Shown here: in pieces, positions 5,977 to 31,897 of the stretch
Layout of the letters: each line of letters opens with the position of its first letter
Position numbering within the stretch: the stretch's first letter is position 1
Assembly: GCA_029060625.1 (NCBI GenBank)
Contig: JAIDTO010000217.1
Span: 1-41,035, forward strand
Direction: 5' to 3'
Length of the DNA stretch: 41,035 bases
Origin: Muribaculaceae bacterium
Lineage (GTDB): Bacteria > Bacteroidota > Bacteroidia > Bacteroidales > Muribaculaceae
Translations under genes and position numbers: made by a program
The notes under the pieces: generated by a model
Databases searched by the model: none
Told to the model about the DNA's origin: nothing
Seen by the model: the letters and a program-made list of their open reading frames with translations, nothing else

Positions 5977-5984
5977 AACACAGC

Positions 5985-9521: not shown

Positions 9522-9547
9522 TGATAAACTATGAAAGATAATAATAT

Positions 9548-10438: not shown

Positions 10439-10454
10439 CAACATTTAAGACAGC

Positions 10455-12310: not shown

Positions 12311-12324
12311 GATTAACAGAAAAA

Positions 12325-13971: not shown

Positions 13972-13987
13972 ATTAGTTGAAAGTCTT

Positions 13988-14920: not shown

Positions 14921-14932
14921 ATCGAAATTGCC

Positions 14933-16649: not shown

Positions 16650-16846
16650 TCCGCCGTTTTTAATAATTCTCCGTTTTCATTTGTTTCCATTCTTACTGAT
16701 TTTATCTTTATAATGCAAGCCTGCACGCAGTAGATTTTAGACCGCACATACCATTCATTTATTAGACCCCAATTTGCCTTAAACTAAATGGTTGCAAATC
16801 AACAACAAAAGAATTATAACGAATTTTCTATTAGGTCAAAACAGCA

Positions 16847-16891
16847 AAAATGTCCTAAAGAATGGACTCTATTAGACCTAAAATGTCCTAA
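16847..16891. repeat. short direct repeats in the gap before the pseudogene
   Basis: AAAATGTCCTAA occurs at 16847-16858 and 16880-16891, and variants of CTATTAGGTC / CTATTAGACC surround both copies. The second copy touches the stop codon of the pseudogene at 16888-17838. This may reflect past slippage or recombination. The remaining part of 16650-16846 shows no gene. Confidence 0.5.
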
Positions 16892-17838: not shown

Positions 17839-17920
17839 CTAACAGAGCCAAAATTATGAGAAATGAAATCCCAGATACGATAAGAATAATTTCTCTATTT
17901 GATAAATCTTTTAATTTCAT
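17798..17920 (-). CDS. possible 40-residue membrane peptide
   Basis: ATG at 17920 opens a frame of 40 codons with one clear transmembrane helix (IILIVSGISFLIILALLGL) after a charged start MKLKDLSNRE, ending in IPESH and TGA at 17798. It overlaps the truncated 5' end of the ATPase pseudogene in another frame. It may be a real small membrane protein, or the cut-off start of another gene joined to the pseudogene by a deletion. No promoter box was identified. Confidence 0.35.
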   Translation of the reverse strand: MKLKDLSNREIILIVSGISFLIILALLGLSIFAFTIPESH

Positions 17921-18264
17921 TATAATTACGAAGGTTCTCTTGTGGAATTTTGTTTTTCTACAACGATAAATAAAATAAGGACTGTGGCATTACCCCCTTA
18001 ATCCAACATAGACATAAAGAAGATAATTAGTCTTTTCATCAAGGAACATTCTATCAAATTTCCCTTGATCATTTGTCCTATTAAATACCAATAGAACTCA
18101 AGAACATCTTGATAAAAAACCATAATGGCTGTTCATGGGGAGCATTACCATGAATAATCATTGTCGGAGTAAATGGTCAATCAAATATTATATGAACCCA
18201 TATATACTATTCCTTGTATGAAATAGAGTAATAAACAGACGACTTCTTCATTATTTCAAACACT
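17921..18264. other. AT-rich intergenic region downstream of the FHA/kinase operon
   Basis: No gene was found in these 344 bases. TTCATGG (18132-18138) and CCATGAA (18148-18154) form a short stem; read on the - strand a T6 run follows after about 12 bases (A-run 18114-18119), so this might be a weak terminator for the operon ending at 18265. The match to a standard intrinsic terminator is poor. Confidence 0.4.
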
Positions 18265-19059
18265 TTAGAAGTAAACGCCAGCTCTAAATCCACAAGAAAC
18301 TTTTGAATTCCCTGAAAACGCAACAGTAAATTGCGGGCCTATAAAGATACCAGCCTTACTACCAATATACACAGCAGGTGCTAAAGCCATACCCCAAGCC
18401 GTTTTAGTTTCATCATTTTCGCCAAAATAAACATCACACAAAATATCAAGAGGCATTGACAATAATATCTTAGGGGTAAAATAATATCCTATCGCCGGAC
18501 CTAATCTTATCTCGTCATAGTTGAAATCGCTTAGTCCATAATTAAAGTTAAGTGGGGAGAAATGAATTCCAGCGTACAGTTTCGGTGCAATTTCCCATGG
18601 AAGCATTGTCCATGAAAAGCCATAAGTTCCCGAAAGTTTAACATCTTCAAAAGAACCAGCCGCATATGTAATCTCATATACGCCTGTTTTTCTTTCTGAT
18701 TCAAAATCTGATAGTTCAAACATCTCAGAATTTTTACTTTTTGTAGATTGCGTTTCCGAGAACACAATATTTGTCTGTCCTACAATATCCGAGTTGTTTT
18801 GAGGTACAAATTGCTCAATATATTGTGCCTGAACAAAACCGAATCCTCCATTATATTTAACTTTTGCCCACCCCTTTTTGATTGATAGAACTTCTATTTG
18901 GCTACCGCTATTAAATGTCCCTAATATGTTGGCACTGGAAGATGCTGCCTCTCTAATGTTAAGAGGAGATGACGATGTTACCTTATAGTTGTTTTCGGCA
19001 AATGCTGCAACAACTATAAATACCATCATTAGCGTAGAAATAACTCTATTGAATCTCAT
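18265..19059 (-). CDS. SH3b domain / outer-membrane beta-barrel-like protein
   Basis: This 264-residue protein has a signal peptide (about 1-21, ending VAAFA), a bacterial SH3 domain (about 25-85: SSSPLNIREAASSSANILG, then IEVLSIKKGWAKVKYNGGFG and FVQAQYIE), a polar linker (86-125) and a C-terminal stretch of alternating strands (130-264: GVYEITYAAGSFEDV, IRLGPAIGYYF, GIFIGPQFTVAF) ending in an aromatic residue (GFRAGVYF), typical of outer-membrane barrels. SH3b domains often bind peptidoglycan, so this protein could link cell wall and outer membrane. It is the last gene of the FHA/kinase operon, 18 bases after the preceding gene. Confidence 0.78.
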   Translation of the reverse strand: MRFNRVISTLMMVFIVVAAFAENNYKVTSSSPLNIREAASSSANILGTFNSGSQIEVLSIKKGWAKVKYNGGFGFVQAQYIEQFVPQNNSDIVGQTNIVFSETQSTKSKNSEMFELSDFESERKTGVYEITYAAGSFEDVKLSGTYGFSWTMLPWEIAPKLYAGIHFSPLNFNYGLSDFNYDEIRLGPAIGYYFTPKILLSMPLDILCDVYFGENDETKTAWGMALAPAVYIGSKAGIFIGPQFTVAFSGNSKVSCGFRAGVYF

Positions 19060-19077
19060 TATTTCGGATTTTGAAGA

Positions 19078-20352
19078 TTATCCAACTGCTTCTTGACCGG
19101 AAATCTTGAAGATAATTATCTTATTAGTAAGGGGGTCATAAACACCATATATTCCTGTTGCACCAGTTGGAATGGTATATTCTATTTTTGAGATACCATT
19201 TACACTGGTTTCAATAGATTTGGGAAGAATGGCGTTCTTAACCATATCCTCAAATGTGAAGCCATAGTAATTTGATTTGGCTTTCTTGTCTTGATATTTG
19301 CGGATACGGATAAGTTTCAGTTGCTGTGCTTTTGCATTATCCATATGGAATTCTGCCGTAATAACCTGAGGATTTGATTGTGAAAGATTGATTTTCAGAG
19401 AATCTGTATCAACAGTAACAATTCCGGATATTTCTTTAGTTGGATTCAATGATGCCACATTGCGATTGATTGCACCTTGTCCATCTTCAAGAACAATGTC
19501 GGTCAGAGGCTTATAGTGTGGATTTTTCTCCTTGCGATATTCAACTATGTCGGCAAGATTAAGGCTCATTGATGAACCATTATCAAGCTGAATGAGCAGA
19601 TAATCGTTAGTGATTTCATCGCTATCAGAGTAGTTACGCTCAAATATAACACCGCGATGTGTTCCACCATTCTTCATCTGAACAATGTCGATCAAGTCAG
19701 ACTGTTCGAGAAGTGTTTGATTTGGGTTAATCTTGAAGCGGTTGTCTTTCATTACTTCTTCGGTGTTAAACACCTCTATTACTCCGTTATCACGGAGGAG
19801 ACTCATTGTTTCTCCGGGTACTTCTTCGATGTATTGACCTTCGTATTCCAAGCCCGAAGCCAATTTATAGCGACGGTTAATACCGGAAAGGAGTAACTTG
19901 GGTCGTTTGTCTGCCCTTACAACCTGAATTGTATCCCAATTAAGCGAATATGTATTGGGGGTAAGTTCAAGATAACGGACTTTTGCGCCCTTTTCAAGAA
20001 TGCGTACACGATTGATTGAGCCGTTTGTTGTAATGATGTCACTAAGCAGGAGGGTACGACCATTACCAACACCGTTAAAAGCATCGTTATCTTCAGCCCA
20101 CTGCTTCCATTCGGACGAAAGAGACGAGACTTTTACTTCGTTGTCAACAATAGACTTTACTTCCTTATTCGGAAGCAAAACTGTCGCTTTAGATGTTGTA
20201 AACGTGAAGTTTTCACCGGGACGCTGACGTGAGATATAACCGGTCAGTTCCGTGCCATCTTTCAGGACAACCGTAAGGTTATCCTGAGCTGAGGCGGATG
20301 CCAGCCCTGCAATCAGTGCAAAGCCGAACAGAAGTGCTTTAGTTACTTTCAT
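19078..20352 (-). CDS. secreted beta-rich protein of unknown function
   Basis: This 424-residue protein has a clear signal peptide (1-22, ending ASASAQ). The mature part shows repeated short units of the type LKDGTELTGYISR, TTNGSINRVRIL, MKNGGTHRGVIFER and EDGQGAI, each followed by a strand and a V-x-x-I or D-I segment, suggesting several Sm-like or RHS-like small beta modules that recur about every 70-80 residues. No catalytic motif is evident and I do not recognise the family. It overlaps the S41 protease gene by 14 bases, so coupled translation is likely. A periplasmic partner or substrate of that protease is a reasonable guess, not more. Confidence 0.7.
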   Translation of the reverse strand: MKVTKALLFGFALIAGLASASAQDNLTVVLKDGTELTGYISRQRPGENFTFTTSKATVLLPNKEVKSIVDNEVKVSSLSSEWKQWAEDNDAFNGVGNGRTLLLSDIITTNGSINRVRILEKGAKVRYLELTPNTYSLNWDTIQVVRADKRPKLLLSGINRRYKLASGLEYEGQYIEEVPGETMSLLRDNGVIEVFNTEEVMKDNRFKINPNQTLLEQSDLIDIVQMKNGGTHRGVIFERNYSDSDEITNDYLLIQLDNGSSMSLNLADIVEYRKEKNPHYKPLTDIVLEDGQGAINRNVASLNPTKEISGIVTVDTDSLKINLSQSNPQVITAEFHMDNAKAQQLKLIRIRKYQDKKAKSNYYGFTFEDMVKNAILPKSIETSVNGISKIEYTIPTGATGIYGVYDPLTNKIIIFKISGQEAVG

Positions 20353-21694
20353 TATAGTGCTTGTTTTTATATTCAGTTACGTATGATGGATCACCTATAG
20401 GGGTGAGAGAGTTTTCAAAATTAGAGCGCAAGTTTATATGTTGAATATTCGTATTAAATGGATTTGAATTGATGATAGAGAACGCAATATTTAATAATGG
20501 TTCATCCAAATCTCCCAAATCCTTTTTGGCGACATTATAGCCTTCGGCGATATAAAAATCAGGAAAAAGTCCGCTATCTGAAACAGTTTCGCCGCCTTTA
20601 TTATAATATTGCATAGTGATTGGCTGGATAGCATATTTGAAGCGGTGATCGCTTATAGTATATGATCCAACACCTTTTCCAACCGTAGCCTCTCCAATTT
20701 GTATGACTTCCATATAAGGTTTTAAGCATAATATGGTTGCCTCACTTGCTGAGGCAGTATGATTCGAAGTCAATACATATAACCGAGAAAGATTTAATGG
20801 AATTATTGGATACCCTCCTTTTGAATGATCATCATCAATTGATGGAAATCCAAAATTATCAAACAACTCAGCATAACCAGTCGCAATAATGTTTTCTTTT
20901 GATATACGGTCGTTGTATTTTGTAATTTGAAAAATGTCACCATATGCTAATTCCGGAGCTATACAGTTTGTCAAATATTTGCAAGTTTTTACGTATCCAC
21001 CCGGATTATATCGCAAATCAAGGACAAGATTGTCAATCCCTTTTTCTTGAAACTTTTTCAACGAAGGAATCAAATCCTCAATACTGTCAAATTCTTTATA
21101 GCATAGATAACCCGTGCCATTGGAGTATATAGAATCCAGTAGTACCGTAGATTGTTTAGATGTATTTGATATAGATAAGGTTATGGTATTTTTATCGTAT
21201 GAGAAGCGCTCATCCTTAACTATAACCTTAGTATACTGTATTGTGGTGTTATCTTGGAAGATTATGTCAATCCAATCTCCTCGCTTCAATGACGTTTTGG
21301 TTACAATAGAATTATCCACATACAGTACCAGAGAAGCTGTATTATTATGACAATCTTTATATGTTTGATACAATATGGGATTTGCCCTTTCCGATGTTGG
21401 CGTATATGAACTATTTGTTAGCATATACGAAAACCGGTCTTTTTCACTAAGAAGTTCAGAGAAGAATTCCTTGGGTGTTTGGTCGTAATTGCAACTTGTT
21501 GAGTCAGGAAGATCTTCTCGCCACAGATAGTGTTGGTTCATTTGAGCATAAATCCATTTATTCTGCTCAAAATAAACATTGTTGGTAGGATTATCAACAG
21601 AAGGTTCTACCGGAGAGGGCATATCCTCTTCGGTAGAACAACTGTTGATTGCTGTTGTCAATAGGCTAAGAATAAGTATTCTTATTACCTTCAT
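20339..21694 (-). CDS. S41 family C-terminal processing peptidase, lipoprotein
   Basis: This 451-residue protein has a lipoprotein signal with Cys19 (TAINSC) and an S41 fold. An N-terminal helical region (about 40-90, QNKWIYAQMNQHYLWRE) is followed by a degenerate PDZ-like part (110-170) and the protease core: NLVLDLRYNPGGYV (about 222-235), TSNHTASASEA with Ser315 as probable nucleophile, and IGEATVGKGVG with Lys340 as general base. The Ser-Lys spacing of 25 matches the family. The enzyme would act in the periplasm or at the cell surface, trimming C-termini of envelope proteins. It is encoded 3 bases after a lipoprotein gene in the FHA/kinase operon and may carry out a proteolytic output of that pathway. 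Confidence 0.87.
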   Translation of the reverse strand: MKVIRILILSLLTTAINSCSTEEDMPSPVEPSVDNPTNNVYFEQNKWIYAQMNQHYLWREDLPDSTSCNYDQTPKEFFSELLSEKDRFSYMLTNSSYTPTSERANPILYQTYKDCHNNTASLVLYVDNSIVTKTSLKRGDWIDIIFQDNTTIQYTKVIVKDERFSYDKNTITLSISNTSKQSTVLLDSIYSNGTGYLCYKEFDSIEDLIPSLKKFQEKGIDNLVLDLRYNPGGYVKTCKYLTNCIAPELAYGDIFQITKYNDRISKENIIATGYAELFDNFGFPSIDDDHSKGGYPIIPLNLSRLYVLTSNHTASASEATILCLKPYMEVIQIGEATVGKGVGSYTISDHRFKYAIQPITMQYYNKGGETVSDSGLFPDFYIAEGYNVAKKDLGDLDEPLLNIAFSIINSNPFNTNIQHINLRSNFENSLTPIGDPSYVTEYKNKHYNESN

Positions 21695-21697
21695 CGA

Positions 21698-22735
21698 TTA
21701 TTTCTGTTTGAGATAATTAATAGCTTTCACTGAAACCGGTGTGTTCTCAAGTTCAATGTTGAAATCTACATTTTGCTCAAATTTAGTATTTGCCTTTTGG
21801 ATTTTGGCAGGAGCATTTGCAGAAATCTCCAAGTCGTACCAGCCAGCTTCATCATTAGCAACGTCGAGTTCAAAATAGTATTCTTTACCTGCTTCAATGT
21901 CAACAACGGCAGGATCGCCCCAGCTATAACGTCTTGAAGCTGTCTCAGCAACCCATTTTAATTTTACATTTTTCATAGGGAACTTGAAACAGTAACCATA
22001 ACCTCCTACATATTGGCTATTTCTTTTATGAGAGTACCAAATGTAATCATAATCAGAGCTTGATTTGATTGAGAATGTAGGTTCGCCATATGAGTTCAGT
22101 GTCAAGTCACTTGATGCTTGATTACCTAATAATTTGAATGTCTCAACGTTGATTGCCACGCCATTGTCATTGTAATCAAGACATGCGTTCCAATCATCTA
22201 TGTGGCATACTATAAGTGCTCCAGCAGGTTTGACTTTTATGTTGATGTCACGTGAGTTTGAAGTAATAATTTGATTCTCGGTAGTAAGTCCTAAGATTGC
22301 ACGAGCGCCACCAATATAATTAGTGTAAGTAAGAGTAGTAGTATTAAGTCTCTCTTGGCCACTTAATGTGTAAAACTCGTCTACTGCTGATGATGTTTTA
22401 CCAACTACATCTGTTAATGCAACGGTTGTATAATCACCTTCCGCCAAATTGAAATTAAATGTCTGAATATGTGTGTAATCCGGCGAAAATGATTCACCTG
22501 ATTCAACCAATACACCCTTGTTGTTGAAAACGAGTAAGCGTACACGAAGCTGATAGTTAGAACCGAGGGATGTTAAATCACCAACATCCCATTCCTCATA
22601 TGAGGAAATAACTGTAGACGGATCTACTTTGAAAGCTGTGGTATGAGTAACGGGGATGTCATCATTGGAACAAGACGACAGAATCACAGTGAAAAGCACT
22701 GCGAAGATTGCGAGGTATTTTTTCATCTGTTTCAT
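21698..22735 (-). CDS. lipoprotein of unknown function (DUF4493-like pattern)
   Basis: This 345-residue protein has a lipoprotein signal with Cys22 (VILSSC); the ATG at residue 4 is an alternative start. The rest is beta-rich and reads like two Ig-type sandwiches: SYQLRVRLLVFNNKGVLVE with GDYTTVALTDVVG (about 60-130), then an NIKVKPAGALIVCHIDDW region (165-190) and a second set of strands to about 310 (KEYYFELDVANDEAGWYDL). This fits Bacteroidetes surface lipoproteins of the DUF4493/fimbrillin-like type, but the family match is from memory only. It lies 3 bases downstream of the barrel gene; a role as an exported partner of the protease encoded next is plausible. Confidence 0.68.
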   Translation of the reverse strand: MKQMKKYLAIFAVLFTVILSSCSNDDIPVTHTTAFKVDPSTVISSYEEWDVGDLTSLGSNYQLRVRLLVFNNKGVLVESGESFSPDYTHIQTFNFNLAEGDYTTVALTDVVGKTSSAVDEFYTLSGQERLNTTTLTYTNYIGGARAILGLTTENQIITSNSRDINIKVKPAGALIVCHIDDWNACLDYNDNGVAINVETFKLLGNQASSDLTLNSYGEPTFSIKSSSDYDYIWYSHKRNSQYVGGYGYCFKFPMKNVKLKWVAETASRRYSWGDPAVVDIEAGKEYYFELDVANDEAGWYDLEISANAPAKIQKANTKFEQNVDFNIELENTPVSVKAINYLKQK

Positions 22736-22738
22736 CTT

Positions 22739-23419
22739 TTATTTGATTACGTTAAATAGCCAGCCTATTCCGAGAGAGATAGTGCTCACCTTAGTTTGAA
22801 AGTTGCCGGCAATGTCGCTATTACCCAAGTTGTAACGAAGGTCTGCGGTAAAGCCATTTTTGAGTTTGCAATTAACTCCAATGGAAAGCATTACATCGTA
22901 TGCTTTCATCTTGTCCATCTGATAAACCGCGTTATTGTACTTGAACTCTTTAGGAGATGCTGAAAACGCACCAGTGAATGTCGGGCCAACTTCCGCAGCG
23001 AATGTAGGAAGAAAGTACCATTGGAACAGAACCGGGATTTCAAAGCAGCTCATGTTGATATTCTCCACATCTGTCTTCAGTGAATGCATGGAGTATAGAG
23101 CTTCAAGCTGAACACCGAAACGCTCAGTTCCGAAAGGTTTGCCTGCAGGTCTACCAAATCGGAGATTTACGGCAGCTCCAGCGGAGAAGCCAATGTTTCC
23201 TGTCATGCCAAGATCCATTCCATCCGGGTCACCGGCTATAGAATAGTTGACACCAACTTTTGGCCCTATTGAAAGGGCATAGGGCTTGTAGACAATCGTC
23301 CCCGAGTTGATATTGTAATTGACAAAATCATCGTCATCAACAGGGACTATGCCTTGAGCCGACGCAGAAACTGCCAATCCGACAGCCAAAGCGAAAGTTA
23401 GAAGAACTCGTCTAAACAT
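22739..23419 (-). CDS. outer-membrane beta-barrel protein (PorT-like)
   Basis: This 226-residue protein has a signal peptide (about 1-21, ending SASAQ) and a barrel of roughly eight strands: LSIGPKVGVNYSIAG, GFSAGAAVNLRFG, RFGVQLEALYSMHSL, FEIPVLFQWYFLPTFAAEVGPTF in two parts, VMLSIGVNCKLKNGF, FTADLRYNLGNSD, and the closing ISLGIGWLFNVIK. This matches the OMP_b-brl_2 / PorT-like barrel family common in Bacteroidetes. Such small barrels have structural or assembly roles rather than transport. It is positioned mid-operon between the WG-repeat gene (15-base gap) and a lipoprotein gene (3-base gap), so an outer-membrane part of the same system is likely. Confidence 0.82.
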   Translation of the reverse strand: MFRRVLLTFALAVGLAVSASAQGIVPVDDDDFVNYNINSGTIVYKPYALSIGPKVGVNYSIAGDPDGMDLGMTGNIGFSAGAAVNLRFGRPAGKPFGTERFGVQLEALYSMHSLKTDVENINMSCFEIPVLFQWYFLPTFAAEVGPTFTGAFSASPKEFKYNNAVYQMDKMKAYDVMLSIGVNCKLKNGFTADLRYNLGNSDIAGNFQTKVSTISLGIGWLFNVIK

Positions 23420-23434
23420 AGATATTGTTATTGA

Positions 23435-24931
23435 TTAAAAAAATGTATTAAAAGTAATTTTCGACTGAGCTCTTTCTCCGGAGCTTAGTTTAATGCTAAC
23501 GTCCTTGGTTGTATAGGATGTAACTGTAAATGTTGTGCTTACTGTCCTTGAACCATGAGCCGGAATACTAACGGATGAACTTTTCCCATTAGACCACGAG
23601 GCTGTTACGGTCACTGATTTATTCGAGTCGTTAAAAATTGTAGAAGAAACAGTAGCCAGATCATTTTCATTGGCTCTTACAGTTGTTGGACCGGGAGCAC
23701 TTACTCTTAGTTTTATTGGATAAACTATTGAAAATTGTTGAGTATTGTCTGCCAAAACAATCCCTCCTTGCTCTATAACGACGCGAGTTTCACACTCGTC
23801 TGCATTTTTTGACACTGATGGTATCGCAGTAAATGTAAATAAATTATCATTTCTTACAAATTCGGAAGTTTTATCTATCAGTGTTCCATTTCCATCATTA
23901 AGAAGGATTCGATAATTTGCAAGTTTTGCAGGGATATTACATTCTATTGTTATTGGCTGAATGTTGCCTTTTCTATCAACTTCAAGTTCAGATGAATGAA
24001 TTCCGTTAACTTTTACATTAATAGAAACTTCTCCGTCATTAACACATAGGACACCATGTTTCCCACCCAATATAGCGATAATATTTCCGTCCGAATACTT
24101 ATCCCCAAAAGAGTCAAACTGAGGAGTAACAATGATATTGTCACCTTGCCTTAATCCATACTTGCCATTTTCAGAATATTCTGAGTAAATCGAAGATTTT
24201 GTTTGAGTTGAAGGATTATTTACGGGAGCTGCGTTGTTGGTTTTAAATGTCTGTTTAAAATCAGCTTCCTTAATTTTACGAACCTTTTGTCCTTTTGTAT
24301 TGACCAGTGCATAGTCAGTATTGTAAGCAACAGGAGCCAAACCATTTGAAAAGCAACCGGCAGCAGTCATTTCTCCATAGTGAAAGTCCACAGCAAGTGT
24401 ATTTCGAGAGGCATTACGGTCATAATTTTCACTAATGAACTTCATGTAATTGCCTTGTTTGACTGGTGCATATCCCTCCTTAAATGGCAGTGCATTGTCA
24501 AATTGACATTTTACCACAATATCTCCTACTGGGTCAATGTAACCAAATTTCCCGTTTTTATTGGATATGACAAGTTTATCTTCTGAAAAGTATTGGTTGC
24601 TTCCCGGAAGATAAAATTTCTCGTTTATTGAAGATATGTTACCATCCTCACCGATTATACTTTGTAGGAGATATTTTGTACCTTCCTTTGAACCGGCAAG
24701 TGCATACCCATTTACAAAAGGGGTGATGAAATCATAATCAGCCTGTAGTATGATTTGATCCCCAGCTTTTATGATTCCCCATTTTCCATTATTTTGAAAT
24801 AAATATAATTCGCCGGAATATCTTTGCAAATTCTGATAACTGGGCGATATAGACCATGTAGCGATTTTAGCATTTGAAGAAACAAATGCTAAAATCGCTA
24901 CAAAAGTTAGTATTTGACGCTTAAGATTCAT
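23435..24931 (-). CDS. secreted WG-repeat protein
   Basis: This 498-residue protein has a signal peptide (about 1-21, ending VSSNA), then WG-type repeats (about 35-275): LYLFQNNGKWGIIKAGDQII, KLVISNKNGKFGYIDPVGDI, EGYAPVKQGNYMKFI and SENGKYGLRQGDNII. The second half (about 300-498) holds two beta domains; the last (KLRVSAPGPTTVRANENDLA, then VSIPAHGSRTVSTTFTV) looks like a CARDB- or DUF11-type Ig fold. WG repeats form propeller-like or solenoid binding surfaces. The start overlaps the end of the FHA-protease gene by 4 bases, indicating translational coupling and possibly a direct partnership with that protease. Confidence 0.8.
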   Translation of the reverse strand: MNLKRQILTFVAILAFVSSNAKIATWSISPSYQNLQRYSGELYLFQNNGKWGIIKAGDQIILQADYDFITPFVNGYALAGSKEGTKYLLQSIIGEDGNISSINEKFYLPGSNQYFSEDKLVISNKNGKFGYIDPVGDIVVKCQFDNALPFKEGYAPVKQGNYMKFISENYDRNASRNTLAVDFHYGEMTAAGCFSNGLAPVAYNTDYALVNTKGQKVRKIKEADFKQTFKTNNAAPVNNPSTQTKSSIYSEYSENGKYGLRQGDNIIVTPQFDSFGDKYSDGNIIAILGGKHGVLCVNDGEVSINVKVNGIHSSELEVDRKGNIQPITIECNIPAKLANYRILLNDGNGTLIDKTSEFVRNDNLFTFTAIPSVSKNADECETRVVIEQGGIVLADNTQQFSIVYPIKLRVSAPGPTTVRANENDLATVSSTIFNDSNKSVTVTASWSNGKSSSVSIPAHGSRTVSTTFTVTSYTTKDVSIKLSSGERAQSKITFNTFF

Positions 24932-26496
24932 TCTCTTACGCGGTGTTTATTATATAGTTCAACCAAATGTTTTATATTGCAGCAATATGTTACCTCAGTT
25001 CCAGAAAAACCACTGCATAAAACGCCCACCAATCGATGAGACTTATCAATAACTGGAGACCCGCTTTGACCGCCAATGCCGACAGCCTGAATCTGAATTT
25101 GATTGTCATCCGGGGTTTTACTCAGAGAGGCCTTATGTATAGTAGGACGTAGTTCCTTTCCATCGAATGTCTGATTATTGACCGTTTCACCCATAGGATA
25201 ACCAGTTATAGTCAATTCTTCATCCTGTGGCTTTAATGTTCTTTCATCAACTCTCGCGTTTTCTATATCATAAATAGCACCCATCTTGACAATATAATCC
25301 GGGGTCTTACGAGAATTAAGACGTATTAAAGCCACATCCTTTTTAGGATCTTCTGATTCTGCAATGACTTGGGCTTGCTGTAAATCTATTTGATTATTTA
25401 CTTTAGAGCCTGTTAAACCAATCCCGAAGAACGCATGCTTACCACCAATTTCCAATGGAGAATTCTGATAACGCCTTAACCATGCGTTTGCATCATCAGC
25501 AGATAATGCTCCAGTCATTACATTATAGGCAAGAAGTTCGTAAAGATTCCCACTGGTAGCTTGACGAGCCTTTTCCATCTGTTGCCTGATATTTTCCTCA
25601 TCTTCTGCATCCCGGTACTCCCAAGGCACTGCAATATGTCTGTTTGTACCCATTTCTCCATCTTTAGAGATGAAGAAAGCAGTACCGGTATATCCAATCG
25701 GACTAAGACCATCTGTGGAAGTATTCACTTGCAATTTTCCGCTCGGTCCTACCCCCATATACCACTTATCAGGCCAGCCTTTAATCACATTTTTAAAAGG
25801 ATCATCTTTTACATTGATCTCATAATAATATCCTCCGTACACACAGCCTGAAGCATTTTCCATTGCTTGTGTGGTTACAGGATCTACAGTGTTATTCCAA
25901 GGAATATATGTCCATGCAGCCCATCCGCAGACAACAATAGCGACAATAGCGGCAGCAATGCCAAGAATTTTGCCCCAAGGATTTCCGGGTATATATTGAG
26001 AAAGATTTACAGGTACACCACCGCAAACGATAGAATCAGTCTTTTTGATTTGTCGCATCTGACCGGGATTAAGACGCTCCCCGTTGATGGTAGAACCATT
26101 TTTGCTGTGATCCTGTAAAAAAGCTTTGCCCTTTCGGTCAATTTTGAGAGTGGCATGATAGCGACTTGCCGTATTCCCGGCAATCTGAATGTCGTTCCTC
26201 ATGCTTGTGCCAATGCCGTATACTGCCTTATAATTAGACATATCTTCGGGCATTGGAACTTGATTCCATATTAGTTCCACATCACCGAAACGAATTGCAT
26301 CGCCTCGTTTGATTGACACTTGAGTTCCGGGCTTGATAGGACGATTCATCACGAAAGTCCCATTGCGACTATTCTTGTCTTCCAGCAAGATGTCGCCATT
26401 GTTAAGTATTGTGATTTCGGCATGGAGAGCACTTGCTTTATCGCTGTGGAGAACGATATCGCAACTTTGGTCTCTGCCTACTTTAAATAGTCTCAT
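24928..26496 (-). CDS. FHA-FHA-TM-trypsin-like serine protease
   Basis: This 522-residue protein has two cytoplasmic FHA domains (1-78 with FKVGRDQSCDIVL, ALHAEI and KNSRNGTFV; 90-165 with YGIGTSMRNDIQI, SRYHATL and HSKNGSTINGE), a transmembrane helix (about 176-198) and a trypsin-like protease domain (about 220-515). Catalytic triad by motif: His287 in TNRHIAV, Asp387 in DVALIRL and Ser478 in GIGGQSGSPV. FHA domains read phosphothreonine, so phosphorylation in the cytoplasm could control an HtrA-like or regulatory protease in the periplasm. The first FHA domain is followed by WNQVP, also found after the FHA of the gene at 26509-27141, showing paralogy. It overlaps the WG-repeat gene by 4 bases. 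Confidence 0.88.
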   Translation of the reverse strand: MRLFKVGRDQSCDIVLHSDKASALHAEITILNNGDILLEDKNSRNGTFVMNRPIKPGTQVSIKRGDAIRFGDVELIWNQVPMPEDMSNYKAVYGIGTSMRNDIQIAGNTASRYHATLKIDRKGKAFLQDHSKNGSTINGERLNPGQMRQIKKTDSIVCGGVPVNLSQYIPGNPWGKILGIAAAIVAIVVCGWAAWTYIPWNNTVDPVTTQAMENASGCVYGGYYYEINVKDDPFKNVIKGWPDKWYMGVGPSGKLQVNTSTDGLSPIGYTGTAFFISKDGEMGTNRHIAVPWEYRDAEDEENIRQQMEKARQATSGNLYELLAYNVMTGALSADDANAWLRRYQNSPLEIGGKHAFFGIGLTGSKVNNQIDLQQAQVIAESEDPKKDVALIRLNSRKTPDYIVKMGAIYDIENARVDERTLKPQDEELTITGYPMGETVNNQTFDGKELRPTIHKASLSKTPDDNQIQIQAVGIGGQSGSPVIDKSHRLVGVLCSGFSGTEVTYCCNIKHLVELYNKHRVRE

Positions 26497-26508
26497 ATAG
26501 TTTCGTTA

Positions 26509-27141
26509 TTAGCCGATTGTACGTTTTGTTTTTTGTGACTTGTCTTTGTCCTTCTTATCCTTTTGGTCTTTTGACTTATCGTCACCCTTTGATTTTGGCG
26601 TGGCAGGTTTCTTTGGAGTAGAAGGTTTCTTGGCGTTTATCGAATCTTGCATAGCCTTTTCAGCAGCTTTCTTGATAGAATCTTGACGCTCAACATTCTT
26701 GATTGAATCCAGTCTTACCGCTTCCTTCTGCTTCAACAGTGTTGAATCTTGAATAGCTGTTGTCGTAGGCTGTTCAGGATTATCTGTTGAGCCGCCGTTG
26801 ATTGCTTTCATTCCAAAAATGACAGCAAGAATAACAATCACAGCGATTATTCCACCAATTAGATATTTAACCCACTGATTGGATTTAGGCACTTGATTCC
26901 AATCAAGTTTCGCCACATGGGCAAGGGATATAATATCCTTGCGAGTTACCGGCACCGGCACATTGGGAGATATGCGTATGCCGTTTACATAGGTTCCATT
27001 GCTGCTTTGGTCAATCAGGGTCATTTTTCCTGATGGAGTGACGTTTAACAGTGCATGACGGCGGCTAATAACGTCGGTTGAGTCATTTATGACTATGTCG
27101 CAGTTTAAATCGCGACCGATTGAATATGTTTTCATCGCCAT
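26509..27141 (-). CDS. FHA-TM protein with Lys-rich periplasmic tail
   Basis: This 210-residue protein has an N-terminal FHA domain (about 4-80: YSIGRDLNCDIVIND, ISRRHALL, DQSSNGTYVNG), a transmembrane helix (about 92-112) and a hydrophilic tail of about 95 residues rich in Lys, Asp and Ser with four D-S-I/T units (QDSTLL, LDSIKN, QDSIKK, QDSINA). The tail is probably extended or coiled-coil and could interact with the cell wall. The FHA core residues (GR, S/RRH, NG) that bind phosphothreonine are present. The WNQVP sequence after the FHA domain is shared with the FHA-protease. Genes on both sides are 1 and 12 bases away. Confidence 0.85.
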   Translation of the reverse strand: MAMKTYSIGRDLNCDIVINDSTDVISRRHALLNVTPSGKMTLIDQSSNGTYVNGIRISPNVPVPVTRKDIISLAHVAKLDWNQVPKSNQWVKYLIGGIIAVIVILAVIFGMKAINGGSTDNPEQPTTTAIQDSTLLKQKEAVRLDSIKNVERQDSIKKAAEKAMQDSINAKKPSTPKKPATPKSKGDDKSKDQKDKKDKDKSQKTKRTIG

Positions 27142-27142
27142 A

Positions 27143-28369
27143 TTAATTTCTTCGTTTACCAGTCGTTGAACTCTTTGATCCTCCTTGCTTATCTGCTTTC
27201 AAACGATCTATTTCTTCCTTTAACAGTTTATTTTCGTCTACTTTGGATTTAACTTTACCCGAAAGGGCTGCATTCTCTTGTTCAAGTTTTTTTACCTTTG
27301 CAGAAAGCTCCGAATTAGCATTAACAGCATTTGATTGAACATTGCCAATCTCGTTTTGCATACTGCCAATAATGGAGTCTTTTTGATGAATTACTGATTT
27401 AAGAGAATCCATCTCCGTCACTTGTGCTGCTTTCGTTTCCTCCGATGCTGATGAATTGTTTCGTCCGAGCAATATGCCATTGAAGACCAAACTCAACAGA
27501 CAGATTAACGAAACGGCTCCTAAAAGGAGTTTTGTTTTTGTGTTCATCTTCGATCTGAGTTTTGAATTTATTTTGGGTTCTACGATTGCAATAGTAAGAT
27601 TATCGTGGCCACCACCTTCAGACCGGCCCTTGCCGTCAATAGTAGTGGCAATTTCATCAGTAACAGTACCAAGTGCATGTTTCCTGTCAGAAACCATGTC
27701 AATAAGTACCGTTTCGGCAACAGAACCATGAATACCGTCTGTGGTCAGTACAAATCTATCACCACTATCATAAGGCAACACAGCGACATCAACCTCAATG
27801 TCGGGTTTTATGCCCAACGCACGGGTAATGACATTTGACTGAGCCGAAAGACGAGCCTGTTCTTCGGTAATAACTTTTTGACGTACTAAATCAAAGACCA
27901 TTGAGTGGTCAAAAGTGCGAAACACCTTACTTTTGCCACGCAACTGATAAACGCGACTATCTCCAACATGAGCGACAGTAGCACATTCTTCATTGATAAG
28001 AAGGACAGTGCAAGTTGACCCCATGCCTTTTAGAGTTGGCATTTCTTGTCCTTGGGCAATAATAGCAAGATTCGCCCTCCGTATCGCCTTGATAATAATA
28101 TTTGAGGCTGTATCATCGGGATTCCCTTCTTTAATGCCATTTATGATTTCATTTACAGCAATAGAAGAAGCAGTTTTTCCTCCGGGACCACCTCCCATAC
28201 CGTCACACACGGTTACGACAAAGCCATAGAGAGTTTCTGCACTTCCATAAGAGTCTTGATTCTCGGAACGGCCACCTATCCGAGATTCAGCGTATCCGAC
28301 TATAAAATTCGGCGTTTTTAGTTGTTGAATCAAATCCATAGTTACTATTGGTTTTATAGTCCGAGCCAT
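27143..28369 (-). CDS. PP2C-family protein phosphatase with TM helix and periplasmic coiled coil
   Basis: This protein (408 residues from 28369; ATG at 28339 is an alternative start that avoids overlap with the kinase gene) has a PP2C phosphatase domain (about 22-265) with all main motifs: GGRSENQDS, VCDGMGGGPGG, GMGSTCTVLL, VGDSRVYQLRG, TTDGIHGS and GGHDNLTIAI. The metal-binding Asp residues (Asp39, Asp56, Asp211, Asp256) are present, so it should be active and Mn/Mg dependent. A transmembrane helix (about 280-302) leads to a coiled coil (about 318-395) in the periplasm. It would reverse phosphorylation by the two kinases encoded just upstream; the coiled coil may sense envelope state. Confidence 0.92.
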   Translation of the reverse strand: MARTIKPIVTMDLIQQLKTPNFIVGYAESRIGGRSENQDSYGSAETLYGFVVTVCDGMGGGPGGKTASSIAVNEIINGIKEGNPDDTASNIIIKAIRRANLAIIAQGQEMPTLKGMGSTCTVLLINEECATVAHVGDSRVYQLRGKSKVFRTFDHSMVFDLVRQKVITEEQARLSAQSNVITRALGIKPDIEVDVAVLPYDSGDRFVLTTDGIHGSVAETVLIDMVSDRKHALGTVTDEIATTIDGKGRSEGGGHDNLTIAIVEPKINSKLRSKMNTKTKLLLGAVSLICLLSLVFNGILLGRNNSSASEETKAAQVTEMDSLKSVIHQKDSIIGSMQNEIGNVQSNAVNANSELSAKVKKLEQENAALSGKVKSKVDENKLLKEEIDRLKADKQGGSKSSTTGKRRN

Positions 28370-29280
28370 TCTTTAAATCGTTGGAATAATGATTTCGGAG
28401 GAATTAGAGCATCCTTAAGGGCTTCACGAAATTCGTTAGCAGTCTGGTATCTCTTTGATTGCTCCTTTTCGGTTGCTTTTAAAATTACAGCCATAATGCG
28501 TTTGGGAACAGCATCACATGCAGGTAATGATTCTCTCATCTGACGAGTTAGAGTATCAACCTCTGTATCTGTATCAAAGGGGTTAGTCCCTGAAAGCAGT
28601 TCATACATTGTGATTCCAAGGGCATATATGTCAGTTGCCGCATTGATTTGGACTGTCCGTGTTTTATCTCGAAGTATCTGTTCTGGGGCCGAATACTGGG
28701 GCGTGCCAATAAATCCGTATTGCGAAAACTTATTACCGTCATTCATTCGGGCTATTCCCAAATCCATAAGCCGTATATTGGAATCTCCCTCCACCATAAT
28801 ATTTGATGGCTTTATATCACGGTGAATAACCCCACGTGAATGCACATATTCTAAGGCATCGAGGACTTGGAACATTGCGTTACATATTTTCTCCACACGG
28901 TCGCTTCCATTGAGAAATTCTTTTACGTACTCGTCAATATTTTTGCCCGAAACATACTTGCTTACAAGAAATATTGGACCACCGGTCGGAGCATATTCAC
29001 AATACCCAATCATTTCTACAAGGTTCTGATGCCGAAAAGCAAGAGATGCCTCCTGCTTGGCACGTTCCCTAATCATTGGATTGTTTGCGTATGCATCCTT
29101 AACACGCTTTATGGCCATACGAGTTCCGTCCTTAACACGATAACCCATATATACTGTGCCCATAGCACCGCTACCTAATGGAGCGGAGGTCGGGTCATAG
29201 CAATACCATTCACCCATTACGAGAAGATAGATGTACGGATCATCCGGACGCTGATATACAGTTTTGCTACTCATAGTCAT
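28354..29280 (-). CDS. soluble Ser/Thr protein kinase
   Basis: This 308-residue protein is one kinase domain without a transmembrane helix. Motifs: LGSGAMGTVYMG (Gly loop, 35-46), MAIKRV with Lys58, VIHRDIKPSNIMVE with Asp155, LMDLGIARM with DLG at 173-175, and YSAPEQ with APE at 198-200. DLG in place of DFG is seen in many active bacterial kinases. The N-terminus carries SSKTVYQRP, a TVY segment that resembles the TV motifs of the FHA protein at 30874-31674 and could be an autophosphorylation site (inference). The start overlaps the upstream kinase by 4 bases, and the phosphatase gene overlaps or abuts its 3' end, so the three are translated together. Confidence 0.92.
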   Translation of the reverse strand: MTMSSKTVYQRPDDPYIYLLVMGEWYCYDPTSAPLGSGAMGTVYMGYRVKDGTRMAIKRVKDAYANNPMIRERAKQEASLAFRHQNLVEMIGYCEYAPTGGPIFLVSKYVSGKNIDEYVKEFLNGSDRVEKICNAMFQVLDALEYVHSRGVIHRDIKPSNIMVEGDSNIRLMDLGIARMNDGNKFSQYGFIGTPQYSAPEQILRDKTRTVQINAATDIYALGITMYELLSGTNPFDTDTEVDTLTRQMRESLPACDAVPKRIMAVILKATEKEQSKRYQTANEFREALKDALIPPKSLFQRFKEWLGL

Positions 29281-30857
29281 TTAGAGGGTTTAAGGTTCAC
29301 CATGCGGTTGGAAATTGCTTGAATATACTCATCGTCTCCGGCTTGTGTCGCCAATTGTTTCGCTTTGTTGAGATATATGTATGCGGAATCTGTGTTAAAT
29401 GATGCTCCTCTCTTTTTGGATTTATAGTCACATCCTAATTCAAAAAGGGAATGATAGTCATTTGGATTGATTGCAACAGCATTCTTTAATAACCTATGAG
29501 CCTCTCTATTTTGGGCAGAAATGCCAAGATTCTTCCTAAAATTCGCAACCGAATCTGAAAAATCTCCAATCTTTACACTTTCATTACTGTCAAAGTATAG
29601 TCTGCTCAACAAAAAAGCTGCATCATAATCCTTTTCATTTGCTAAGGATTTCAGCATACTCAGACCTTCATTAGCCGTTTGTTTATCTGTTAATAAAGAT
29701 AGTGCAAGGTCATATGAAATTTGAGGCTGTATATTGTCTTTGTTTACTGATTTATTGGTTTCTGCATAAGCAGTTATCTCATTGTCAGGATGTAGTGGAT
29801 CTTTATCAGATGAATGATTATAAATATCAATACCACCTATTATCAAACCAACGAAAACAGCTGCACTTCCTATAATAACGCCTATTTTCTTCCATTCAAC
29901 TGACCGACCGGGATAATCTAATGGAACAAGTTTGTCCACAGCAACTCTAAATTCTGCTGCACTTTGGAAACGCTGAGAACGTTTTTTTTGAGTAGCAGTA
30001 TTTATTACCTCCTGAATTTGTTTTTGCTTAACATTCTGGAGTGGCATCTTCTTATTAAGTTGCATCTCCAATACTTCAGCCATTTCACCGTCAAAAGGCA
30101 CTTTGCCAACCAGTAGTTGATAAAGTAGAATTCCGACAGCATAAATATCTGTGGTGGCGTTTTGTGAATCCACAAGACCTCGCACCAACTCTGGAGCAGC
30201 ATACTTAGGTTTACCTATAAATTGACCGTCTATGGTATAGGAACTTTCTTTTGTATTGTTCCCATTTATCTTTTTTGCAATACCAAAGTCAATCAGCTTT
30301 ATCTTACCATTGGAAGTAATCATGATATTCGAGGGATCTATATCCCTGTGAATATATCCGGCATCATGGAGTGCCATAAGCCCGGAAAGCAAACTCCGTA
30401 CAATTGAAATGGCAAAACCATAAGAATTATTGATATACTTCCCATGTAGTTCCTGAGCAAAAGGTATAACACTTCCTTTGTTGTCAGTTACAACCCCATT
30501 TAACAGTTTATCAAGGGTAACACCATGTAAATATTCACTTATAACATGATAACGGACAATTGGTTGCCCCAATTCATCTTTCCCGTTAATTTCAACGAAA
30601 CCTAACATTTCTATTAGGTTATCATTTCTTAATTGAACGGCTGCTTCACGACGTGCTCTGGCAATTACATGTGGAGGCAAATCACTATACAAAAATTTTA
30701 TAGCAACTTCCCTTCTTTGATTAGTTGTTTCACTACAGCACCAACCTTTATACACTTTTCCCATTCCTCCTTCACCCAGAGGAGTGTCAGAGGGATCGTA
30801 CTCATAGTATATACCTTTCTGTCTTTCGTTATCGCCTTGAATACGTACAGTGGCCAT
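29277..30857 (-). CDS. membrane Ser/Thr protein kinase with periplasmic repeat domain
   Basis: This 526-residue protein has a cytoplasmic kinase domain (about 17-312): LGEGGMGKVYKG, VAIKFLY with Lys54, YIHRDIDPSNIMI with Asp172, LIDFGIAKK with DFG at 190-192, and YAAPEL (APE 221-223). The catalytic loop reads HRDIDPSN, with Asp where Ser/Thr kinases normally have Lys; DFG and the other residues are intact. A transmembrane helix (about 325-345) is followed by a periplasmic part of about 180 residues with TPR/Sel1-like helical pairs (SYDLALSLLTD, DYDAAFLLSRLYF, DYHSLFELGCDYK). PknB-type sensing of envelope signals is likely. It is followed by the soluble kinase with a 4-base overlap. Confidence 0.92.
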   Translation of the reverse strand: MATVRIQGDNERQKGIYYEYDPSDTPLGEGGMGKVYKGWCCSETTNQRREVAIKFLYSDLPPHVIARARREAAVQLRNDNLIEMLGFVEINGKDELGQPIVRYHVISEYLHGVTLDKLLNGVVTDNKGSVIPFAQELHGKYINNSYGFAISIVRSLLSGLMALHDAGYIHRDIDPSNIMITSNGKIKLIDFGIAKKINGNNTKESSYTIDGQFIGKPKYAAPELVRGLVDSQNATTDIYAVGILLYQLLVGKVPFDGEMAEVLEMQLNKKMPLQNVKQKQIQEVINTATQKKRSQRFQSAAEFRVAVDKLVPLDYPGRSVEWKKIGVIIGSAAVFVGLIIGGIDIYNHSSDKDPLHPDNEITAYAETNKSVNKDNIQPQISYDLALSLLTDKQTANEGLSMLKSLANEKDYDAAFLLSRLYFDSNESVKIGDFSDSVANFRKNLGISAQNREAHRLLKNAVAINPNDYHSLFELGCDYKSKKRGASFNTDSAYIYLNKAKQLATQAGDDEYIQAISNRMVNLKPSK

Positions 30858-30873
30858 AGCACAATAATATTAT

Positions 30874-31674
30874 TCAATCCATACCTACCGTACCACCGCT
30901 ACGAAATCCACCTCCATTCATATCCATCCCGACTGTTGAATCGGTAGGTCTGTTACCTCCGTCATATGCCGAAGGATGAACTGTTGATGCAGGGTTAAAA
31001 CGAGGTGGAAAATCTTGCTCATTCCGTGTGGTATTGTCTCTTCCACCATTAAATCCGCTTGGAGTATATACCTCGTCATCCTCTCTAACATCAATAAAGT
31101 TTTCTGACAAATGTAGCCCAAGTGCCTTTGTATCAATTAGCAATAGTAAGAGGTCATAGTTTTCTCCAATTGTAATTATATCTCCATTAACACACTCAAC
31201 CGGACGAGCAACTGATACACTGCTTTCATTAACAAGTGTTCCATTAGTTGATCCAAGATCTGAGATTGTAGCTTCAGTCTTCTCCGGCTTTTTCATTTTG
31301 TTGATATGAAGATTGGCATGTTTAGAAGATACAGTACCTTCTCCTAACACTATATCACATTCCGATGAATTGCCAATTATGTTCTGTCCTATATGCAGAG
31401 GCCAAAACTCACCAATTCCAGTTCTGGAGATGGAATATAAAAAGCCCACAATTGGCTTACCCGAAGGTCTTGGATGGGCGTTTGCAGTGTTTTGAACTGG
31501 TCGGGGAACACCATTTGCAGGCATATCCATCCCGGGATATACCGTCCCATTTCCTCTCTGAGGATTAGACGGGCGAGAATATGCCTGATTGCCTCCGGCG
31601 TATCCTTGACCTTGGTTGGGATTATAATCTCCTTCGGGCCCAACACCCGGAAAGACAGTCTTGTTCTGTGACAT
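30874..31674 (-). CDS. FHA protein with repeated TV motifs, first gene of the kinase operon
   Basis: This 266-residue soluble protein has one FHA domain (about 90-182: HIGQNIIGNSSECDIVL, TVSSKHANLHI, DLGSTNGTLVNE) between long disordered flanks. The flanks carry five similar Thr-Val motifs: KTVFPG (Thr6), GTVYPG (Thr44), STVHPS (Thr231), STVGMD (Thr247) and GTVGMD (Thr262). Gly/Pro after TV and their clustering suggest kinase acceptor sites that could bind FHA domains in this or other proteins, as in GarA-type switches. It is the first gene, 16 bases before the membrane kinase gene, and is a probable scaffold or adapter. No transmembrane segment is present. Confidence 0.88.
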   Translation of the reverse strand: MSQNKTVFPGVGPEGDYNPNQGQGYAGGNQAYSRPSNPQRGNGTVYPGMDMPANGVPRPVQNTANAHPRPSGKPIVGFLYSISRTGIGEFWPLHIGQNIIGNSSECDIVLGEGTVSSKHANLHINKMKKPEKTEATISDLGSTNGTLVNESSVSVARPVECVNGDIITIGENYDLLLLLIDTKALGLHLSENFIDVREDDEVYTPSGFNGGRDNTTRNEQDFPPRFNPASTVHPSAYDGGNRPTDSTVGMDMNGGGFRSGGTVGMD

Positions 31675-31701: not shown

Positions 31702-31728
31702 TAGGTATCTCTTGCCAAGAGATACCTA
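31702..31728. repeat. palindrome, copy 1 (complete)
   Basis: TAGGTATCTCTTG (31702-31714) and CAAGAGATACCTA (31716-31728) are exact reverse complements around one base. The same left arm plus CAAGAGAT recurs at 31876-31897. Copy 1 ends 27 bases upstream of the FHA operon start codon. It could be an operator, or a hairpin in the leader RNA with a 10-bp stem and 7-base loop. Confidence 0.75.
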
Positions 31729-31859
31729 TGGTGATATAATCCAATGATTAATAAAACCATAGCTAAGACAAATCCTTAAATTACTAAACATTTTTCAGTT
31801 TTTAATCAAAAATTTTGGTTAATTTGGCATAAAAATTTTCATATTTGGGATATTTTCTT

Positions 31860-31877
31860 TATCTTTGTGCAAAAATA
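31860..31877. promoter_or_regulatory. overlapping divergent -7-like boxes
   Basis: TATCTTTG on the + strand (31860-31867) and TATTTTTG on the - strand (31877-31870) lie back to back, both matching TAnnTTTG. The - strand box would start an mRNA with a leader of nearly 190 bases for the FHA/kinase operon; the + strand box would drive the region up to the terminator at 33074. Convincing -33 boxes were not found for either. Confidence 0.45.
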
Positions 31878-31897
31878 GGTATCTCTTGGCAAGAGAT
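31876..31897. repeat. palindrome, copy 2 (partial)
   Basis: TAGGTATCTCTTG (31876-31888), one base, then CAAGAGAT (31890-31897); the outer right arm is lost. It lies directly downstream of the + strand -7-like box and upstream of the - strand box, placing it well for regulation of both. Confidence 0.7.

Follow-up and report, generated by a model that had tools for sequence, protein, structure and literature searches.

What might a bacterium gain from encoding, in a single operon, threonine kinases, a phosphatase and phosphothreonine readers together with a trypsin-like protease and six apparently exported proteins? The question is raised by a 41,035-nucleotide (nt) stretch of contig JAIDTO010000217.1 from a Muribaculaceae bacterium (hereinafter the window, meaning this whole stretch), in which twelve open reading frames, g1 to g12, lie on the minus strand at 18265–31674, separated by 1–18 bases or overlapping by 4–16 bases, as the original prediction had described. 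With about even confidence, we favour the answer that this cassette encodes a horizontally spread, trans-envelope phosphothreonine relay, which in the window genome is probably phase-variable. We found no description of the cassette in the open-access literature. Homologous loci are labelled L###, genomes G### and contigs C##, the window genome being G000.

Writers, an eraser and readers that span the membrane

Pfam bears out the domains earlier named for the first six genes. The product of g1 (30874–31674, minus strand, as for all genes of the cassette) is an FHA protein with threonine motifs in both tails and no transmembrane segment (TM) in a hydropathy scan. Two Ser/Thr kinases with Pkinase domains follow: g2 (29277–30857), in which the kinase domain leads via a TM (325–343) into a C-terminal part with a sub-threshold TPR match, and g3 (28354–29280), which has no TM in the window and a terminal one in 6 of 17 homologues. 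The phosphatase g4 (27143–28369; PP2C_2) continues via a TM (283–301) into a coiled-coil-like tail, and g5 (26509–27141) consists of an FHA domain, a TM (93–111) and a Lys-rich tail. Finally, g6 (24928–26496) joins two FHA domains via a TM (177–195) to a trypsin-like protease (Trypsin_2).

A TM after the first domain was recovered by hydropathy in all homologues scanned, window included, namely 11/11 for g2, 18/18 for g4, 18/18 for g5 and 24/24 for g6; the three membrane-spanning proteins originally proposed are thus four, with one TM each. Therefore, the C-terminal parts of the kinase g2, the phosphatase g4, the FHA protein g5 and the FHA-protease g6 should lie in the periplasm.

The catalytic residues are conserved throughout. 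The protease triad of g6 (H287, D387 and S478) is present in 24/24 aligned homologues and in all 59 covering proteins of the wider set, a sixtieth (L132), cut off by its contig before the triad, being left out of the count. Among the covering g2 sequences, the catalytic Lys is found in 40/40 and the Asp, Asn and DFG Asp in 41/41; the catalytic loop reads HRDID, with an Asp (D174 in the window) replacing the Lys usual in Ser/Thr kinases in 41 of 41. In g3 the catalytic Lys is seen in 55 of 56 sequences (an unknown residue standing in the remaining one) and the HRD-loop Asp, Lys and Asn in 57/57, while all three metal-site Asp residues of g4 are present in 58/58. These aligned counts supersede earlier regular-expression counts that were too strict or spoilt (e.g., HRDxKxxN in 27/58 g3 proteins). 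Both kinases score under the cut-off of 450 of the PASTA kinase model NF033483, g2 with 162.5 and g3 with 204.4 bits. By domains, hydropathy and catalytic residues, g2 and g4 hence form the pair of transmembrane Ser/Thr kinase and PP2C phosphatase that characterizes the threonine phosphorylation pathway of type VI secretion systems (T6SS).

The protease part of g6 resembles DegS/HtrA-type proteases in being a membrane-tethered trypsin fold, with profile matches to DegP/DegQ and V8-type chains, but differs from them in having no PDZ match in Pfam and in carrying two FHA domains on its chain. The regulation of envelope proteolysis that had been suggested for the cassette is plausible because the protease shares its chain with FHA readers. 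More generally, domain architecture, catalytic residues and gene order support the earlier view of a membrane-spanning module of phosphothreonine writers, eraser and readers tied to envelope proteins.

Threonine motifs in the tails of g1

Going beyond the original prediction, we observed that the tails of g1 are of low complexity, yet maintain four Thr sites (TVFPG, TVYPGM, TVGMD and a C-terminal GGTVGMD). With patterns accepting either Ser or Thr across 41 proteins, site 1 is Thr in 38 and absent in 3, site 2 is Thr in 39 and absent in 2, and site 3 is Thr in 36 and absent in 5, with Ser in none at any of the three; the last seven residues contain Thr in 40/41 and Ser in 7/41. The tails combined hold 375 Ser and 334 Thr. 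The tally excludes six g1-like proteins of variant C (see below) and resets the N-termini of the L100 and L110 proteins to an inner Met; the patterns having been drawn after the sequences were viewed, the informative quantity is the ratio of Ser to Thr and not the presence of a site. FHA domains recognise phosphothreonine and not phosphoserine. Because these sites are Thr and never Ser, and given this specificity, g1 is likely a multi-site phosphothreonine scaffold.

The motif T-x-[VIFY]-P-[GND]-[MI] occurs in 39 of the 981 proteins of the loci, 37 of these being g1; outside the 981, it was seen in two unrelated proteins, at L083 and L084. It also revealed g1 proteins in two variant B loci in which blastp had missed them, while a third such locus (G041) yielded no g1 by this motif within the surrounding 30 kb.

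We propose that the relay would work as follows. With a promoter facing the operon, the cassette would be expressed, and the soluble kinase g3 and the membrane kinase g2 would phosphorylate the scaffold g1 at the Thr motifs of its tails, a modification that the PP2C phosphatase g4 would reverse. Both g5 and g6 would dock through their FHA domains on the phosphothreonines of g1 at the inner membrane, and this docking would gather or position g6, such that phosphorylation in the cytoplasm sets proteolysis in the periplasm. The simplest output would be the controlled periplasmic proteolysis of exported partners; these (g7 and g11 in most cassettes, and also g8–g10 and g12 here) would likely serve as sensor, substrate or envelope anchor.

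Conservation and horizontal spread

Of the genomes sampled, 26 of 297 from the family and 2 of 111 from the genus contain a match to g6; the second one in the genus, G330, has a distant locus of variant B. The 26 include two genomes matching the protease part only (L066 and L067), one partial match (L065) and six variant C loci. Scanning the genome collection with a pattern yielded 56 loci, of which 42 (L094–L135) have cassette genes and 14 (L136–L149) the FHA part only. By title, all of the 42 belong to Bacteroidales with the exception of L104 (JAMPAQ010000001.1), which is titled Pseudoflavonifractor and is probably misnamed. Cultured commensals are among them, namely Bacteroides rodentium JCM 16496 (L102) and Phocaeicola massiliensis DSM 17679 (L112). 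The non-redundant set comprises 59 loci, including two that match the protease part only.

Each gene was identified through its best blastp hit among the window proteins and order was scored with the best-scoring copy of each, a procedure that undercounts diverged genes (such as the two g1 of variant B mentioned above). The order kinase-PP2C-FHA/TM-FHA/protease (g3-g4-g5-g6) is kept in 48 of the 51 loci holding all four, that of g1, g3, g4, g5, g6 and g11 in 30/30 loci with all six, and that of g1 to g7 in 29/32. All of g1–g11 are present in six loci, five of which have the order of the window. Scored neighbours among g1–g7 are on the same strand within 500 bases in 242 of 279 pairs, with a median gap of 14. 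The cassette is, by this measure, a conserved Bacteroidales gene block, and the possibility raised with the original prediction that the order might not extend beyond the window genome is not borne out.

Two variants stand apart. In variant B, a TssR-like VWA protein, an ABC ATPase and an FtsX permease precede kinase, PP2C, FHA, FHA/protease and g11, and two of these loci have g1 and a further kinase upstream. Variant C (L059–L064) differs in order, reading FHA/protease-FHA-PP2C-kinase-FHA-kinase.

The GC content of the cassette is 39.6%, as compared to 46.6% and 49.0% in two flanking stretches. The window g6 shares 71% identity with its counterpart at a Paraprevotella locus (best segment, L103), 71% with that of L042 and 70% with that of L094, as against just 40% and 30%, over two pieces, with the only other match within its genus. 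Because of the patchy distribution and low GC, the cassette has probably been transferred horizontally.

The same patchiness and low GC, along with the linkage to recombinases in four loci, would also suit a phage-defence or inter-bacterial conflict system in which a trigger frees the periplasmic protease against the cell's own envelope, and the kinases indeed match defence models such as PD-T4-6, and the protease RT-Protease models, in PADLOC. These matches, however, reflect generic kinase, phosphatase and protease similarity; none of g1, g5, g7, g9 and g11 matched a PADLOC model (g8, g10 and g12 lying outside that search), and g6 was absent from phage records at E 1e-5. A long operon with many exported proteins also differs from compact defence systems, and we regard this explanation as very unlikely. 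The NTP-dependent conflict systems of Kaur et al. 2020 (PMC7159879) likewise number kinase, FHA and trypsin domains among their parts, but no AAA/MoxR, STAND or vWA domain was matched by Pfam in the twelve genes, and the available part of that paper contains no description of this cassette.

As a separate observation, the record of a 140-kb Phocaeicola massiliensis plasmid (OY726067.1) encodes a near full-length relative of g6, 35% identical, at 49585–51162.

A candidate invertible promoter

A second feature absent from the original prediction lies upstream of g1. The repeat search recovered a perfect 23-nt inverted repeat with a proximal arm at 31707–31729 and a distal arm at 31875–31897; the 145 nt between them (31730–31874) hold a −7-like box, TATCTTTGT, which matches TANNTTTGY on the plus strand and reads away from g1. 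This pair is the sole perfect inverted repeat of at least 14 nt with 40–500 nt between its arms in the 41-kb window, and simulating the upstream 900 nt 500 times with a first-order Markov model gave no repeat longer than 15 nt, versus the 23 observed. The available part of PMC8748976 gives TANNTTTGY as the Bacteroidales −7 consensus and describes invertible promoters with inverted repeats. The segment resembles these in its repeats and −7 box, as well as in the upstream recombinase of four relatives and the UpxY-like first gene of L052, and is unlike them in standing before a phosphosignalling cassette and, at other loci, before T6SS genes. We accordingly treat 31707–31897 as a candidate invertible promoter that may flip.

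Similar repeat arrangements within 900 nt of g1 occur in the window, L042, L043 and L045, i.e., in 4 of 46 upstream regions as compared to a simple-shuffle mean of 0.2. In L052, a repeat segment lies farther upstream, ahead of the UpxY-like first gene, and points toward the operon. A recombinase gene is found just upstream in L042, L043, L045 and L052 (4/59 loci), and tyrosine-recombinase Pfam domains were confirmed for the first two. Segments bounded by repeats in the same layout are also present in the T6SS regions of G276, G219 and G056, while no inverted-repeat segment of this kind was found at those of G138, G390, G396 and G167. In all eight segments inspected, a −7-like box sits 37–42 nt from the outer edge; it is a strict TANNTTTGY in seven, L042 having one mismatch, and is oriented toward the operon in two (L052 and G276) and away from it in six.

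Within the window genome, the arm core ATCTCTTGSCAAGAGAT (at most one mismatch) occurs in three places, the two arms and C52:14458. The C52 copy lies ahead of a run of NusG-like, FHA and kinase genes, roughly 1.3 kb away from a recombinase that has 57% identity to the L042 protein. None of three recombinases compared with the window had a match there; homologues 63, 60 and 57% identical lie elsewhere in this genome, the last being the one on C52.

Three further observations concern such repeats. G000:C52:11974–19042 (L068 and L185) is a second recombinase-headed run that contains one copy of the repeat core together with NusG-like, FHA/TM and kinase genes (Rpn-like, LytTR-like and Sel1-like genes were named by eye) and ends at the contig end. 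The variant C locus L064 has two inverted 22-nt arms of similar look, spaced by 140 nt, 1.7 kb upstream of its first scored cassette gene. Further repeats in L045, L107 and G401 (the last of low complexity) were rejected as promoter switches, being unlike such switches in appearance.

Relationship to type VI secretion

In Pseudomonas aeruginosa, TagQRST are components of the T6SS threonine phosphorylation pathway. The cassette shares with that pathway (PpkA, PppA, Fha and TagQRST) its transmembrane Ser/Thr kinase, PP2C and FHA readers, and variant B adds a TssR-like protein together with an ABC ATPase/FtsX permease pair, the latter reminiscent of TagS/TagT. The cassette might thus be an orphaned or transferable PpkA/PppA/Fha-like module that governs how a T6SS-like machine assembles or fires, acting in cis in G098, and elsewhere in trans or no longer. 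In Agrobacterium, PpkA phosphorylates Thr14 of TssL, to which Fha binds (PMC3953482, available part), and therefore a relay of this type can control an envelope machine.

The most direct evidence for such a module comes from G098, where a single strand carries T6SS genes interspersed with those of the cassette: a recombinase, an UpxY-like gene, g1–g9, g11, a kinase, a WG protein and a ClpB/ClpV-type ATPase are followed by a TssB-sized gene, TssC, Hcp, VgrG, DUF4280, an M23 peptidase, a TssK match, others, two kinases and a WG protein. TssC, Hcp/TssD, VgrG and DUF4280 score above their Pfam cut-offs and TssK below them in both Pfam and NCBIfam. ClpB models suit the ATPase better than those of ClpV, and TssB, with no family match, is named by position. 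A T6SS in G098 is well supported by these genes, its completeness being a separate matter. The module reading draws further on the T6SS-ordered E1/E2 block that follows the cassette in G062 (next section) and on the repeat layout shared with G276, G219 and G056.

Against this, the sheath gene TssC of the Bacteroidota-type T6SSiii (PF17541; VipB PF05943, TssN PF17555 and TssR PF20782 were also searched) is absent from 25/26 family genomes with a g6 match and from 30 of 34 others; this makes 5 of 60 with and 55 of 60 without it, a sum that treats the two sets as sharing no genome. The 34 are those of the 42 named loci put to this search, the other eight matching genomes already searched. PF05943 was found in none of the 26, and the window genome, which is 79% complete, has no match to PF05943, PF17541, PF17555 or PF20782. 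Cassette and TssC co-occur in one of the 297 family genomes, which is at the chance level (26 × 8 / 297 = 0.7). The T6SSiii of G383, which has TssN, has no cassette gene in the surrounding 35 kb, and the T6SS loci of G138, G390, G396 and G167 lack the inverted-repeat segment. The profile of TagH (TIGR03354, cut-off 120.25 bits) gives g5 only 35.1 and g6 53.4 bits and does not list g1 at E 0.001. Thus, the original observation that no secretion gene is seen at the locus extends to most genomes with a g6 match and gives way in G098, the one genome with T6SS genes beside an orthologous locus, a situation that the original prediction had named among what would refute it, and in part in G062, where only an E1/E2 block abuts the cassette. 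We consider the T6SS module an unlikely account of the window cassette.

The cassette further departs from the threonine pathway in that the window genome yielded no T6SS sheath gene and adjoining T6SS genes are confined to G098, and in its own trypsin-like protease on the same chain as FHA domains, four Thr motifs in g1, two kinases and WG and beta-rich partners. As for T6SSiii of Bacteroidota (TssB-C-D-H-I-K with TssN-R), it is approached by the TssC and Hcp of this type among the G098 cassette genes and the TssR-like protein of variant B, but TssN was detected in only one (G383) of seven genomes tested, the others being G098, G390, G396, G401, G078 and G000, and the window genome has no match to TssC, TssN or TssR. 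Term searches returned no mention of kinase, phosphorylation or FHA from the available part of one paper on Bacteroidota T6SS (PMC10781749), and none of kinase, FHA, phosphatase, ubiquitin, ThiF or integrase from another (PMC4714493).

Putative ubiquitin-like conjugation genes

Relatives of an E2 gene of L043 were identified by blastp in all seven TssC loci with enough flank (G138, G219, G276, G167, G390, G396 and G401), together with an E1, a ThiF protein, in six and a small ubiquitin-like (Ubl-like) gene in three. The G276 locus is truncated by its contig, those of G056 and G259 stop short of the E1/E2 part, and G012 was left out of this comparison; blastp showed no E1, E2 or Ubl-like genes in G098 and G383. 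Against the UQ_con cut-off of 27, the L043 E2 passes with 27.5 and the one in G219 falls just short with 26.6; Pfam gave no match for the G401 E2. The Ubl-like gene, which matched no family, is so named on our own reading. Directly after the cassette, G062 encodes Ubl-like-E2-x-L079_1-L079_2-L079_3-E1, the order of the block in the G219 T6SS cluster apart from one intervening gene there; its Ubl-like, E2 and E1 proteins are 76, 80 and 74% identical to those of G138 and 79, 83 and 66% to those of G219. TssC was not found in G062. A ubiquitin-like conjugation pathway linked to T6SS would, if true, be a separate finding.

The E1/E2-bearing T6SS clusters are L174/L175 (G138), L178/L179 (G219), L157/L158 (G390), L159/L160 (G396), L161/L162 (G401), L181/L182 (G167) and L176 (G276). 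The G062 block also contains one protein with a weak RING-like match and another with a weak JAB match, both below cut-off.

Weighing the phosphothreonine relay

Several points weigh against the relay as we propose it. Its phosphorylation, docking and cleavage steps are predictions from sequence. The periplasmic placement is predicted from hydropathy, and the Lys-rich tail of g5 is equally compatible with the cytoplasm. The Thr patterns are post hoc and the sequences related, such that the counts are not independent events. As to phase variation, no recombinase lies beside the window repeat (three were compared with the window); the −33 box is imperfect, with no exact TTTG 17–22 nt before the −7 box of the window; 41 of 46 g1 upstream regions have no such repeat within 900 nt, L052 being counted as positive; and −7-like matches run in both directions in G056. 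In the window itself, a second −7 match, TATTTTTGC, has its start within the distal arm and is directed toward g1, because of which we call the assembled orientation OFF only tentatively. Finally, the interleaving in G098 suggests that the cassette output there may be a machine and not proteolysis.

The original prediction of an inside-out switch captures one of two directions of signalling with which the sequence is compatible, the other being outside-in. If true, the relay would offer a direct physical route from cytoplasmic phosphorylation to envelope proteolysis, with the four Thr motifs of g1 as a testable docking code, and the association of the cassette with recombinase-flanked repeats, as well as with T6SS genes in one genome and with genes known from T6SS clusters in another, would give a handle on how Bacteroidota control such machines. 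A bolder formulation, which strikes us as doubtful, is that of a new trans-envelope switch class in which a multi-site phosphothreonine scaffold (g1) would act via FHA domains on a periplasmic protease of the same chain, expression would be gambled by DNA inversion, and the cassette would form the control or anchoring part of an unusual, TssN-less T6SS subtype with its own ubiquitin-like E1/E2 conjugation genes.

Predicted exported partners and neighbouring genes

Downstream of g6, Pfam upholds most of the partners originally named. The WG-repeat protein g7 (23435–24931; WG_beta_rep) has an N-terminal export-like segment and a beta-rich C-terminus (AlphaFold2 (AF2) model with a predicted local distance difference test score (pLDDT) of 90.8), and g8 (22739–23419) belongs to an outer-membrane beta-barrel family (OMP_b-brl_2). 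The proposed lipoprotein g9 (21698–22735) has a lipobox, the pattern being found in 15 of 16 homologues including the window; Pfam offers for it a DUF6562 match below the cut-off. The S41 protease g10 (20339–21694; Peptidase_S41) conserves SASE in 8 of 9 homologues including the window, and has a lipobox-like Cys noted by eye, with 5 of the 9 passing the pattern. The all-beta protein g11 (19078–20352; AF2 model pLDDT 89.0), with an N-terminal export-like segment, matched no Pfam family and has a homologue in 40 of 59 loci, and g12 (18265–19059) combines an SH3b domain (SH3_3) with a beta-rich C-terminus. Among the 59 loci, the optional genes g8, g9, g10 and g12 are present in 16, 15, 8 and 1, respectively.

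That g8–g10 are outer-membrane or lipoprotein genes, and that, of 14 N-termini inspected by eye for g7 and 14 for g11, most resemble export signals, would also accord with an ordinary regulator of envelope stress or a surface structure, its protease constitutively maturing exported proteins and its kinases being active elsewhere. The fixed order of kinase, phosphatase and FHA genes with the protease in 48/51 loci would, however, be odd if they were unconnected, and we assign this explanation a small probability compared with the relay.

The gene at the g12 position in L043 encodes a LysM domain with a sub-threshold match to an outer-membrane barrel. In one close relative (L042, 554–2493, and L104), the g12 gene is followed by genes for a radical SAM/SPASM protein and a further protein of unknown type.

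Elsewhere in the window, the region 3′ of g12 (16650–18264) has a GC content of 37.8% and contains fragments that by eye resemble a broken DNA-binding or helicase-related gene. A divergent run at 5065–15523 encodes fimbrillin-like, BspA-LRR, BACON and M64-peptidase domains along with another kinase gene at 13841–14920. On the other side of the cassette, 33523–35202 encodes a HAD hydrolase fused to 3-dehydroquinate synthase, a blastp relative of which is also found about 10 kb or less from the cassette in L110, L131, L134 and G330.

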